This document shows positions 23,815 to 42,532 of a stretch of 42,532 nucleotides of DNA, one piece after another (position 1 is the first letter of the stretch; every line of letters begins with the position of its first letter). Source of the stretch: Desulfococcaceae bacterium (GTDB lineage Bacteria; Desulfobacterota; Desulfobacteria; Desulfobacterales; Desulfosalsimonadaceae). A program made the position numbers and the translations under genes. The notes beneath the pieces are model-generated. The model did not search any database. It was not told where the DNA came from and was given only the letters and a program-made list of their open reading frames with translations. The DNA lies in contig JAQYVU010000034.1 of NCBI GenBank assembly GCA_030145385.1, forward strand, positions 1 through 42,532. The letters are read 5' to 3'.

Positions 23815-23901
23815 GTCATTACGAGGAGTGAGGAACGAACGACGAAGTAATCCCCTGGCTTTTTAATGAGATTGCTTCGGTCGTATCTTCCTCGCAATGA
23901 C
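23815..23901. repeat. Palindromic GTCATTNCGAGGA repeat
   Basis: The left end GTCATTACGAGGA (23815-23827) pairs with the right end TCCTCGCAATGAC (to 23901); inner parts GACGAAGTAATC and GATTGCTTCGGTC also pair. This is a common type of dispersed bacterial palindrome. No coding function. Confidence 0.75.
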
Positions 23902-23987
23902 TTAAAATTCGTCGTTGAAGGGCTTTCCGTTCAACCACTATTTATCTTATTCCCATTAAGTTGATTTGGTCCGACCGGAATTGTTAA

Positions 23988-24700
23988 TTCTTTACGGATA
24001 GTTATTCTCTACTTTTCTTTGACGGGCAAAGCAAAGTAGCAAAAGAAACCCGTCCTGTAGCACGTTCCCTCGATCCGCAGGTTTCCATGGCGGGATCAAA
24101 AATTCGCTCAATCCCCGGGCCGGGCAGCTTTTTTATTTCTTTATCACCTTTTTGCCTTTCCAAGATATCTGCTTTGTCGCCGCTCAGACAGTTTGCTCCC
24201 TTTTTCCATGGAAACCGGCGTCTCTCGGCTGTGCTGCAATGGGATTCCCCCGGCATTCATATTGTTGCAAAAATGCTGTGAAATCAGAGGAAGTATTCAT
24301 ATCTGTTTTTTATCTTTCCAGAATTTGAAAATTTTAAAAGGGCGTCACTGGCAAATATTGCCTGTTCCACCTGCGAGACCTTGTCGGATGATATCTGGTT
24401 TGCCGAAACACCAAAGAAAAGGATGAAATGCGTTCGCCGGTGGGATGCCCATTGCGATGCGGCCCGGAACCGATGGTTTCCGTGGGACACGGGGGCAAAC
24501 TGTTTGAGCGGGTAAATGGAAATGAACCTGACTGCTTCGATAATCTGAACCGTCAATCCGAATCACGGCATTCCACTTTTAACAGCGACCAAAAAGCTTC
24601 AACTGGCTGCCCATGCCACGGAAGTCTTCAGGGCAGGGAATACCGCAGCGCAGGGCTGGGTTCTTTTGTTACTTTTCTTGCCCATCAAGAAAAGTAAGAG
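23988..24700. repeat. Composite interspersed repeat element, copy A with inverted partner
   Basis: The left end (23988-24057) contains the short palindrome CTTTTCTTTGACGGGCAAAG followed by a GTAGCAAAAGAAA motif. The right end (about 24660-24700) carries the same motif inverted (TTCTTTTGTTACTTTTCTTG, then GCCCATCAAGAAAAGTAA), so the 713-bp unit has terminal inverted repeats. Inside are a self-complementary arm pair (24080-24090 with 24206-24216) and blocks such as CAGTTTGCTCCC, also seen inverted at 24495-24515. Open frames inside are repeat-derived and not convincing genes. No transposase is present. Confidence 0.65.
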
Positions 24701-24821
24701 GAAAAAGCCGATTAATCAGGTATATACCCCGAATATGATTATCACGGATAAATAAGTATGCTGTCCATGGAATTACCAAAAATCAACAATCAGGTCCGAC
24801 CCCATTCTCAATGTTTTAATT

Positions 24822-24842
24822 CAAGATTAAAGATGCGACCCC
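24822..24842. repeat. Half copy of an ATTCAAGATTAAAGAT repeat
   Basis: The sequence ATTCAAGATTAAAGAT followed by a GACCC-type end recurs at 26902-26924, where it forms the right arm of a perfect palindrome. Only one arm is clear here. The surrounding stretch 24701-24865 holds nothing else recognisable. Confidence 0.5.
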
Positions 24843-24865
24843 GATTCACGACCCCGATTCATTAG

Positions 24866-25095
24866 TTCTTTACGGATAGTTATTCTCTACTTTTCTTTGA
24901 CGGGCAAAGAAAAGTAGCAAAAGAAAGCCCGCCCTTCAACTTGGCCTTCGGCTTCCCTCGCAAAACATTTTTTGCAGCGGGATCAAAAACTCGCTCCGCT
25001 CAAACAGTTTGCTCCCTTTATCTGCAAAAAATGTTTTACTCGGCTGCGTTGCAATGGGTAAGCCCCCCGGCGTTCATTCTTTGGCTATAATGCAG
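24866..25095. repeat. Interspersed repeat element, copy B
   Basis: It shares with copy A the TTCTTTACGGATAG start, the CTTTTCTTTGACGGGCAAAG palindrome, the GTAGCAAAAGAAA motif, a GCGGGATCAAAAA block, a CAGTTTGCTCCCTTT block and a final CTCGGCTG..TGCAATGGG block. Between the blocks it has its own 16-bp perfect arm pair (24962-24977 with 25022-25037), different in sequence from the arms in copy A. Confidence 0.65.
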
Positions 25096-25409
25096 TTTTT
25101 GATATCAAAAAGGTAGGTTTAAGTCATTATTGAGCCATGTTCCAGTATATGTTTTCTTTGTTATTCGATAGTGGGCTTGGTCCGACCTGTTTTCCTGTAA
25201 CATCGACTCATAATTTTTTAATAAATTCGGGTCAAATTGAATCATTTGGAAATATCCGATATGCTGTTTATCACTCAAATCCGGGTGTTAAACTGTTAGA
25301 AAATAGCATAACCGAAATCAAAGTTAGTTGTCAGAACTTATTTTTTTTGATACGAACGGAATGTTAATCGACAAATGGAGTTAAACAGAAAAAAACTGTA
25401 GAATACATT
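25096..25409. other. Non-coding spacer before the cassette-like genes
   Basis: About 310 bases between repeat copy B and the cassette-like core site. The only open frame (25137-25367) has no ribosome binding site or recognisable composition and is not accepted. A remnant of an older cassette or an attI-type site could be here, but no matching half-sites were found. Confidence 0.3.
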
Positions 25410-25426: not shown

Positions 25427-26125
25427 ATGGCGAAGAAATCGAAGCAACTTATTGGTGAGTGCGTTCATTGCGGCATCCTCGGGCCGGTCACAAGCGACCA
25501 CATTCCACCAAAAGGCCTGTTCGCGTCACCTCGCCCGAAGCTGAAAAAAGTCCCGAGTTGCGAATCATGCAATGTTGGCGCTTCAAAGGACGACGAGTAC
25601 TTCCGTGCGATGCTTAGCTTCCATGATACTGCCGGTGATCACCCCGATGCGCGGCAAATCAGAGATAAGGTGTTTCGTGGCCTCGACAGGCCAGAGAGCG
25701 CTGGGCTACGGCACAAGATCGCGAATGCGACACGGGAGGTTAACGTTATCAGCTCAAACGGGCTGTTCGTCGGCCGTCGGCTCGCCTACGACGTCGATTT
25801 AATAAGACTCGACCGGGTGGTACGCCGCACCCTTACAGGGCTTTACTATAAGGAGAAGGGCTATCGCCTCCCCGACGGTTATATCGCTGAAGTTTACTCC
25901 GAAGAAGGCCTAAGAGACATGTCTGCAAGCGCCATCGAAAAAATGCATCGCGAACTGATTCGCCCCGCATTGGCTAATGTCCCCCGCACCATTGGCAACA
26001 AAGTATTGCGATACTGGTTCGCACTTGCGAGTGATCATCCTCACGTCTCGGGATGGGTGTTTCAGTTTTATGAGCGCATCAATTTCTTCGGTATTACGCT
26101 GCCTGCTGACCGGGCGAGCGTTTAA
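25427..26125 (+). CDS. HNH-type zinc-finger protein, probable cassette gene
   Basis: A 232-aa protein with an HNH-nuclease-like metal motif at the N-terminus: CVHC (Cys12, Cys15), then SDHIPPKGLF (Asp24-His25) and CESCN (Cys45, Cys48, Asn49). The DHxPPxGLF pattern occurs in a group of HNH-like hypothetical proteins; nuclease activity is inferred, not certain. The remainder (about 60-232) is not recognised. It is clearly richer in GC than its neighbours, which suggests acquisition from elsewhere. The ATG lies directly after a GTTGGGC core site and the stop lies just before an attC-like element, the layout of an integron cassette. Confidence 0.72.
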   Translation: MAKKSKQLIGECVHCGILGPVTSDHIPPKGLFASPRPKLKKVPSCESCNVGASKDDEYFRAMLSFHDTAGDHPDARQIRDKVFRGLDRPESAGLRHKIANATREVNVISSNGLFVGRRLAYDVDLIRLDRVVRRTLTGLYYKEKGYRLPDGYIAEVYSEEGLRDMSASAIEKMHRELIRPALANVPRTIGNKVLRYWFALASDHPHVSGWVFQFYERINFFGITLPADRASV

Positions 26126-26930: not shown

Positions 26931-27035
26931 CCGATAGTTATTCTCTAGTTTTTTTTGACGGGCAAAGCAAAGTAGCAAAAGAAACCCGTCCTGCAGCACG
27001 TTCCCTCGATCCGCAGGTTTCCATGAACCGGGACG
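26931..27035. repeat. Interspersed repeat element, truncated copy C
   Basis: About 95 bases nearly identical to the left end of copy A (23998-24090): GATAGTTATTCTCTA, the CTTTGACGGGCAAAG core, GTAGCAAAAGAAACCCG, and on to GGTTTCCATG. It breaks off there and lacks the second half. Confidence 0.7.
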
Positions 27036-38678: not shown

Positions 38679-38810
38679 GAGAAACATTGGTTTACGGAAT
38701 TTAATGTAATTTTTGCAGGCATGGCAGGGTCTAATAATATCTTTGATGTTGACATCAAGGGACAAATTTAGGAATTTATAGGATAAGTTATACAAAAATA
38801 TAAGATATTA

Positions 38811-38978
38811 TTCGCCGGGTGCCGATTCAGGCTCAAAAGGGAAGACGGTGAAAATCCGTCGTGGTCCCGCCGCTGTAAGTGAGGACGAACACCGCATCAT
38901 GCCACTGTTTCACGTTAAGTAAAATGGGAAGGCGCGGTTATTAGGAAGATTCACAAACCAGAAGACCTGCCGGGCGAA
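38811..38978 (+). ncRNA. Cobalamin (vitamin B12) riboswitch aptamer
   Basis: The outer stem pairs TTCGCCGG (38811-38818) with CCGGGCGAA (38970-38978, one bulged G). Inside are the classical conserved pieces: AAAGGGAAGACGGTGAAAATC-type core (written here in part, from 38836), CCGCCGCTGTAAGTGAGGA (38868-38886), GCCACTG (38901-38907), GGGAAGGCGC (38926-38935) and the B12 box with CCAGAAGACCTGCC (38958-38971). It binds adenosylcobalamin or a related cobamide and controls the transporter genes downstream. A TTGACA at 38749-38754 may be the -35 of its promoter, but the -10 is unclear. Confidence 0.93.
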
Positions 38979-39032
38979 TGGGTTTATTTTGCCGTGGTAG
39001 CGAATTAACCACCGAACTGTTAAATCCATATA

Positions 39033-42089: not shown

Positions 42090-42532
42090 TTGTTCATTTT
42101 CTTTGACGCCCAAAGAAAACGAACCAAAAGAAAGGTCGCCCAGTCCCTTGTCCCTCCTTCGTCGGGATACCCTGCGCGCCTCAAACCTGCCGGAATTCCG
42201 GCCAGTCTTATGCTTTGGTCGCTGTGCTCAAACAGTCCAGGATTTTTAATGTCAGTTTTTCCGGTGCTCGGCTGCGGAACAATGGGATTCCCATCGGCCA
42301 CAATAATTGAAATATCATAGGGGGTTACTTTCGTTCCTACGGTCCTCCGTGGGAATATACATGTCACTTGGACATTATAATATTATTGGGACTCTTTCCC
42401 ATTGCAACACGACCGAGAGGCACTGGTTTTTATGGGAAACGGGAGCAAACTGTTTGAGCGGTGACGAAGCCGGGTTTGTGGGAATTCAGCAGGATGTTAT
42501 TGAAATCAGTAATCAGGATGTTCTAAACGGTC
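42090..42532. repeat. Interspersed repeat element, copy D, running off the window
   Basis: It contains the core palindrome TTTTCTTTGACGCCCAAAGAAAA (in part, 42097-42119) and ACCAAAAGAAAG, as in copies A-C, then diverged blocks (CTGTGCTCAAACAGTCC, CGGCTGCGGAACAATGGGATTCCC). Near 42446-42461 is GCAAACTGTTTGAGCG, matching the inverted block of copy A at 24496-24511. The open frame 42090-42320 lies wholly in the repeat and is not taken as a gene. The 105 bases from 41985 to 42089 show nothing recognisable. Confidence 0.6.

Follow-up and report, generated by a model that had tools for sequence, protein, structure and literature searches.

The stretch of DNA analysed here (the window; 42,532 nt) is an entire contig (C47) of a 5.24-Mb Desulfococcaceae genome in 209 contigs, and it carries copies A to F of a dispersed repeat (Table 1). 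The first-pass annotation had described copies A and B as sharing the same ordered sequence blocks and as having, at equivalent places, their own perfectly pairing arms. A direct check of the window agrees on each count: the blocks are present in order in both copies, the arms of copy A pair perfectly over 11 bp (93% over 15 nt), and those of copy B are fully paired over 16 bp. That annotation overlooked copy C, with arms of its own (TTTCCGTGG at 24477-24485 and CCACGGAAG at 24616-24624), as well as copies D, E, and F; the first arm of copy D is unpaired, its second half being gone. In copy B, the short stem S1 can be drawn in two 4-bp registers (24901-24904 or 24902-24905).

Table 1. Repeat copies in the window and their structural parts (window positions; strand as assigned to the proposed RNA)
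Feature	Position	Strand	Description
Copy A	24009..24254	-	long form, 74-nt insert in the P4 hairpin
P0 palindrome of A	24009-24039		
P3 arm of A	24080..24090	-	
P3 partner arm of A	24206..24216	-	
Copy C	24448..24697	+	third copy, between A and B, inverted relative to both
Copy B	24887..25072	-	short form, without the insert
S2 hairpin (P0 palindrome) of B	24887..24917	-	CTACTTTTCTTTG-ACGGG-CAAAGAAAAGTAG; duplex portion of the proposed triple helix
S1 pseudoknot strand of B	24901..24905	-	CGGGC, in and beside the hairpin loop
Third strand of B	24919..24926	-	AAAAGAAA on plus, TTTCTTTT on minus; parallel to the S2 purine strand AAAGAAAA
S1 partner strand of B	24927..24931	-	GCCCG
P1 strand of B	24932..24940	-	closes the body with 25048-25058
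P3 copy-specific arm of B	24962..24977	-	pairs with 25022-25037
P4 strand of B	24979..24987	-	GGGATCAAA; pairs with 25008-25016, one conserved T.C mismatch
P4 partner of B	25008..25016	-	TTTGCTCCC
P3 partner arm of B	25022..25037	-	
P1 partner strand of B	25048..25058	-	GTTGCA-AT-GGG
Copy D	26945..27025	-	truncated: P0 module and first arm (plus orientation), no second half
Copy E	about 42092..42290	-	divergent, P0 stem altered
Copy F	42398..42532	+	inverted, cut by the contig end

Several other features lie in the window. A tandem 13-nt direct repeat (CGACCCCGATTCA; 24836-24861) is located directly upstream of copy B, and a different palindromic repeat (TGTCATTACGAGGAGTGAGG...GAGATTGCTTCGG...CCTCGCAATGAC; 23820-23905), which we take to resemble a widespread intergenic repeat, directly upstream of copy A. 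An open reading frame at 25427-26125, the start of which (with CxxC and DHIPP) looks like that of an HNH nuclease, has no Pfam match, and a cobalamin riboswitch (RF00174, 116 bits; 38800-38988) is found upstream of a periplasmic-binding protein and a FecCD permease.

The repeat is abundant in the genome. BLAST with copy B as the query returned 91 matches, many of which are fragments of a single copy, and the P4 block, with up to 3 mismatches allowed, is found at 45 places compared with 1 for the backward control. There are 37 family anchor sites and 33 comparable copies; 31 of the 37 sites were used in a first alignment, 33 in the arm-swap test, and 24 in a separate alignment (A1), and one copy (C56:7873) was not captured by the anchor. 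Between the motifs CTCGCT and CGCTCA, the P4 hairpin of these copies is either minimal (3-4 nt) or carries an insert of 72-76 nt, and three copies (C, L034, and L035) have an extra AGCCAGTT...TTTTTGG segment. Close pairs in this genome are mostly arranged body to body (e.g., on contigs C2, C88, C100, C121, and C133). Another repeat of ~180 nt was observed inside the P0 hairpin loop of five copies (L019, L024, the minus copy of L029, L030, and L031), with different bodies downstream among the five, which suggests either a site-preferring insertion or an exchange of modules between copies.

The copy-specific arms had been interpreted as covariation, to be examined across the collected genomic copies. 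We scored distinct arm pairs from 33 copies in fixed structural registers (5 of them set by hand) and compared the pairing within copies with that obtained when arms are swapped between copies. The Watson-Crick fraction is 0.874 within copies and 0.667 after swapping for P3, 0.858 and 0.716 for P4, and 0.726 and 0.564 for P1, and the observed value was reached in none of 10,000 swaps for any of the three stems. In A1, a MAFFT alignment of 24 copies on the RNA strand with the structure P1+P3+P4+S2+S1 drawn on copy B, 91.0% of the cells are paired, versus 85.1% in shuffled and 46-54% in slid controls; double-sided changes are seen at 17 pairs (shuffled mean, 8.1) and in 74 cells (21.5), values not reached in 500 shuffles each. 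Fifteen of the 17 double-changed pairs fall in P1, P3, and P4, and there is no excess of further pair types in A1 (30 versus 30.7 shuffled). RNAalifold recovers P1, P3, and P4 from A1 unaided, with compensatory changes in 16 of 27 pairs, and does not predict S2, which is 84% paired in this alignment. It should be noted that the shuffle statistics overstate independence, because the copies share ancestry. Arm covariation is thus strong in three nested stems by the swap test, the A1 shuffle, and RNAalifold alike.

The most conserved part of the element is the P0 palindrome together with the AAAAGAAA tract that follows it. The hairpin loop ends in letters complementary to those that follow this A/G tract, forming a potential stem, S1. 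Across 74 distinct combinations of loop and downstream letters, with the window's own genome excluded, the mean best S1 stem is 3.34 bp, compared with 1.70 bp after swapping (reached in 0 of 2,000 swaps); at least 4 bp can form in 43 of the 74 combinations and 2 bp or fewer in 18. The letters themselves are highly variable (e.g., TGTG/CACA, TCGC/GCGA, and TGCC/GGCA), and among the matches listed, those of the loop tend to agree within a genome and to differ between genomes, with several versions in one genome (G308). The element therefore meets the membership test for an H-type pseudoknot, namely, a stem S2 and an S1 complementarity that crosses it. Among the 24 aligned own-genome copies, six, including copy A, have a break at one S2 position. 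At four Xanthomonas loci (L238, L241, L252, and L260), S2 is interrupted, in either arm, by a hairpin-like insert of about 25-30 nt. The original inference that pairing preserved despite sequence change reflects a selected fold and not a decaying repeat is supported by these results, i.e., by three covarying stems and a pseudoknotted fourth found across phyla.

On the strand opposite to P0, the parts follow in the order S1, TTTCTTTT, S2 (TACTTTTCTTTG), S1', S2'. The tract TTTCTTTT runs parallel to the S2 purine strand AAAGAAAA, and each of its letters matches one of that strand in a T.A-T or C.G-C triple; this is how an H-type pseudoknot is arranged when its loop 1 lies in the major groove. 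A strict scan in which a hairpin, a purine tract, and S1 were required, and a mirror relation was not, gave 190 overlapping matches and none in the reversed sequence. Over an enlarged set of loci, it gave 198 elements, 73 of which have a variant stem tract; in 64 of these 73, the stem and its own third strand agree over 7 nt or more, and 27 would agree with the canonical third strand. Across 23 distinct combinations, stem and third strand match at a mean of 5.74 positions, compared with 3.83 after swapping (0 of 5,000). A looser first scan (177 matches, 4 in the reversed control) was set aside because it admitted chance matches; its values were 4.32 observed and 3.86 swapped (0 of 5,000).

The third strand was also left open, with only a variant stem, CAAAGAGAAG, specified in the search pattern, which was run on 97 genomes from the family of one carrier (Dyella; G297) and matched in 33 of them. 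Among 30 loci tested, the predicted third strand AAGAGAAA is present in 24 (26 elements) and the canonical AAAAGAAA in none; the exceptions are near variants with GAG at L209 and L212, and no such strand at L200, L204, L205, and L206. One own-genome copy (L027) is discordant, its third strand being one A longer than the stem. The membership test that the loop strand co-vary with the stem as base triples is thus met, on comparative evidence only. Where the stem varies, the third strand apparently varies with it in a mirror-type manner, which is what base triples demand, and a physical triple helix is inferred from this. The telomerase RNAs, including K. lactis TER, contain H-type pseudoknots with a pyrimidine-motif major-groove triple helix; the present element has the same topology and polarity, in that its loop 1 is rich in U and C and runs alongside the stem 2 purine strand in parallel orientation, but differs in having a short, variable S1 and in being bacterial and multi-copy.

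The element is widely distributed. In a phylum sample of 297 genomes, the exact core pattern occurs in five, one of which is the genome of the window, without any backward match, and a scan of GTDB contigs found at least 119 stretches with the module; the taxa among the matches listed comprise Xanthomonadales, other Gamma- and Betaproteobacteria, Desulfobacterota, Selenomonadaceae, Bacteroidota, and a few Clostridia. Eleven of 12 module-bearing genomes have 2-39 hairpin copies and the twelfth has 1 (backward control, 0). Tandem rows of three P0 hairpins were observed at G305:C46:3996-4445 (213 bp apart) and at G297:C1:1118675-1119493 (about 380-410 bp apart), and in a Selenomonadaceae MAG, a RAGATH-18 RNA (RF03064; L048:2046-2107) lies about 0.8 kb from an element.

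The elements are mostly intergenic; an open reading frame of at least 600 nt spans 14 of 135 parsed elements. There is no recurrent neighbour family among 239 flank proteins (the largest cluster has 6 members, from 3 loci), and by mechanical open reading frame calls, the orientation relative to the neighbours is mixed (34/31/26/17 of the 108 elements for which both neighbours were called). A reading as a riboswitch or cis-regulator was rejected on the grounds of this mixed orientation and the lack of a recurring neighbour family.

A 2.2-kb query with one element gives between 5 and 44 matches per genome in 20 Xanthomonas genomes, and among the matches listed, most of the short ones cover the element itself (query positions about 939-1262). 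At the query's own site, the element is present by BLAST in 17 of the 20 genomes. The exact core is found there in 13 of the 17; in the other four (G410, G411, G412, and G413), the body aligns at 81-86%, and an S2 insert is present in the two that were inspected. The element is missing at this site in G405, G416, and G420, which have 90, 92, and 147 nt between the flanks, compared with 377-684 nt otherwise. Fast-changing, low-complexity flanks mask any target duplication at the site, and one locus (L258) is without one flank. At least 17 close inverted pairs are present in Xanthomonas, and among the matches listed, the P0 ends face each other in all of them. We infer that the element spreads as a non-autonomous element by a route that remains unresolved. 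REP/BIME and MITE-type repeats, for instance the intergenic repeat families of P. fluorescens (PMC2718517), are likewise dispersed in up to tens of copies, often as inverted pairs, and with lineage-specific copy numbers; the present element is distinguished from such repeats by its length (about 170-330 nt), by a multi-stem covarying fold with a pseudoknot, and by the fact that some carriers have no Y1 transposase match.

Two annotated RNAs are relatives of the element or overlap with it. In the accessible part of its description (Weinberg et al., 2010; PMC2864571), TwoAYGGAY RNA (RF01731) is classed as a probable RNA that is unlikely to be cis-regulatory. At loci L070 and L057, RF01731 matches the body of elements with the same P0 module; the full-model match at L070 (348-512) ends before the P0 hairpin and the L057 matches are partial, so the pseudoknot and triple-helix module lies outside RF01731. 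This module is not part of the Rfam definition of the family and is a criterion added in this analysis. In the window, RF01731 has no match at the gathering threshold and none at E<=10 over 23950-25150, and the A[CT]GGA[CT] loops of TwoAYGGAY are not present in the window copies, the bodies of which have an ACTC...TCARACA hairpin instead. The window copies thus share the module found beside RF01731 but are not members of that family.

For the second relative, Bp1_684 (RF02421), five of six matches start 7 nt inside S2 and continue through the next hairpin on the proposed RNA strand, whereas at the sixth (L144), an S2 arm is missing beside the core. The annotated RNA covers only the 3' part of the element and leaves out the body and most of the pseudoknot. 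As far as the accessible text of PMC3521395 goes, Bp1_Cand684 (Bp1_Cand684_SIPHT) is an RT-PCR-validated sRNA found in several bacterial groups with unrelated flanking genes. The openly licensed literature, supplements excluded and so far as its text was available, yielded no description of the element's dispersal, pseudoknot, or triple helix, and judged from titles and the beginnings of abstracts, it contains no relevant paper with the core sequence; an earlier description elsewhere is possible.

Both Rfam families point to the same strand. Three RF01731 matches (in L070 and L057) and six RF02421 matches (in L173, L104, L122, and L144) are found on the opposite strand from P0, and one of two RF01731 matches in L176 fits this strand as well; sub-threshold matches in L162 and L178 show no clear fit to it. 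A GGA is present in the body-hairpin loop of 74 of 200 elements on the proposed RNA strand and of 12 of 200 on the other. Because of the Rfam strands and the GGA loops, we favour an RNA on the strand opposite to that on which the first-pass annotation had read copies A and B; it is likely to be transcribed from the minus strand for A and B and from the plus strand for C, with the body first and the pseudoknot last. A mismatch test for the transcribed strand is not significant (82 A.C versus 64 G.T, p = 0.16; a smaller first test had given p = 0.048). Within the window's own family, P1 has 27 G.T and 3 A.C in the plus orientation, leaning to the other strand; 25 of the 27 G.T sit at inner positions 8-9, and with positions 8-10 excluded, the counts are 2 and 3. 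Strand calls by UNCG/CGNA tetraloops (10 versus 9) and by GNRA-type loops (6 versus 34 on the opposite strand, largely from TCC loops) were rejected. To our knowledge, no transcript is known from the window's genome or class, and the RT-PCR in Burkholderia may not have been strand-specific. RNA on the strand opposite to P0 is favoured over single-stranded DNA by a solid but limited preponderance and is not proved. The original proposal of a selected folded RNA or single-stranded DNA therefore holds as far as the fold is concerned, with the type of strand only partly settled.

The selected fold could instead be that of single-stranded DNA, in which the same pairs and triplex would form, the repeat being a non-autonomous mobile element recognised in folded form by a transposase or relaxase (in the manner of IS200/IS605, RAYT-like, or integron-like systems). 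We regard this as unlikely without dismissing it. The dispersal of the element, its presence and absence at the orthologous Xanthomonas site, the inverted copy pairs, and the occurrence of the module on 9 stretches of 8 viral contigs are all in line with such mobility, the G.U test gives RNA no significant support, and a pyrimidine-motif triplex forms in DNA too. The window's own genome has 13 matches to Y1_Tnp (PF01797) and 1 to RVT_1; however, Y1_Tnp has no match in 4 of 17 element-bearing genomes (G129, G301, G305, and G306) and RVT_1, found in 6 of the 17, has none in the other 11, and G305, with a match to neither, carries 39 hairpin copies. Mobility by a Y1 transposase or a reverse transcriptase acting in trans is not general; several of the carriers lack a match. 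RNA is the better fit for the two Rfam families, both of which lie on the same strand and one of which has been detected by RT-PCR, and likewise for the strand bias of the GGA loops and their link to CsrA, an RNA-binding protein. Alternatively, the repeat could be neutral and without selected function, its arms being perfect only through hairpin-templated (quasipalindrome) repair or gene conversion. Template switching can perfect inverted repeats, and copies do decay and become truncated, as copy D illustrates, but S1 crosses S2 and the third strand is a mirror rather than an inverted repeat of the stem; both co-vary, and neither is expected from a hairpin template. In particular, mirror-type co-change of third strand and stem would not be expected to arise when a decaying inverted repeat is repaired from a hairpin template. 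The layout of the module is, moreover, kept across phyla, and we consider the neutral explanation highly improbable.

If the element is an RNA, it could itself be a CsrA-sequestering sRNA, as proposed for TwoAYGGAY in the accessible part of PMC4333381, where CsrA-like sites are noted in that RNA and its function is given as unknown. Over 66 carrier genomes, many with a single element and with the genome of L073 left out, GGA loops are present in half or more of the parsed elements in 26 of the 37 genomes with CsrA and in 3 of the 29 without a match (Fisher p about 1e-6). This association is confounded with phylogeny, and a missing CsrA may reflect an incomplete MAG. Against a general role of this kind, 29 of the 66 carrier genomes have no CsrA match; the window's own genome has no match to CsrA (PF02599), and only 3 of its 41 parsed elements have a GGA-type loop on the RNA strand. 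The ACTC...TCARACA class, to which the window bodies belong, is not significantly tied to the absence of CsrA (6 of 37 versus 8 of 29, p = 0.36). Since the genome has no CsrA match and the bodies are of another class, CsrA is an unlikely partner there. As an explanation of the whole element, the sponge is improbable; it may apply to the GGA-loop class but would not extend to the family or to the window.

Our preferred explanation, which we consider probable though by no means secure, is that the repeats are a dispersed structured-RNA element with a drifting paired body and a triple-helix H-type pseudoknot on its 3' side. Comparison of the copies and genomes, which is the only kind of evidence at hand, shows the body stems, the short stem S1, and the co-change of the third strand. 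In the proposed structure, a body closed by P1, P3, and P4 would drift in sequence while keeping its pairing, and the conserved pseudoknot to its 3' side would have the pyrimidine strand TTTCTTTT in the major groove of a stem of 9-12 bp, parallel to the purine strand of the stem, with predicted U.A-U and C+.G-C triples. A short stem of about 4 bp, differing in sequence between genomes, would lock the pseudoknot. That the element acts as an RNA is inferred, as are the suggestions that the triple helix may provide a stable, nuclease-resistant platform and that the body would present loops to a partner protein. This putative partner would be CsrA for the GGA-loop class of other bacteria and an as yet unidentified one for bodies of the window's class.

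More tentatively, and with slightly more doubt than belief, we suggest that these elements form a superfamily of mobile structured-RNA genes spread over several phyla and defined by the triple-helix pseudoknot, a lineage-specific 4-bp "lock", and exchangeable bodies, with one body type carrying CsrA sites and occurring mostly in hosts that encode CsrA, and others presumably serving other partners. If this is true, TwoAYGGAY, Bp1_684, and many unannotated intergenic repeats would be united as parts of one kind of element. The present analysis provides a shared core module, with comparative evidence for base triples, for an Rfam family whose function is unknown and for an orphan sRNA of Burkholderia, and it extends the distribution to several phyla. 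If the preferred explanation is right, the element is a triple-helix RNA that occurs naturally in bacteria, in many copies and sequence variants, and with it one could test what role an RNA of this type plays and by what means a structured RNA gene spreads when it has no protein of its own.
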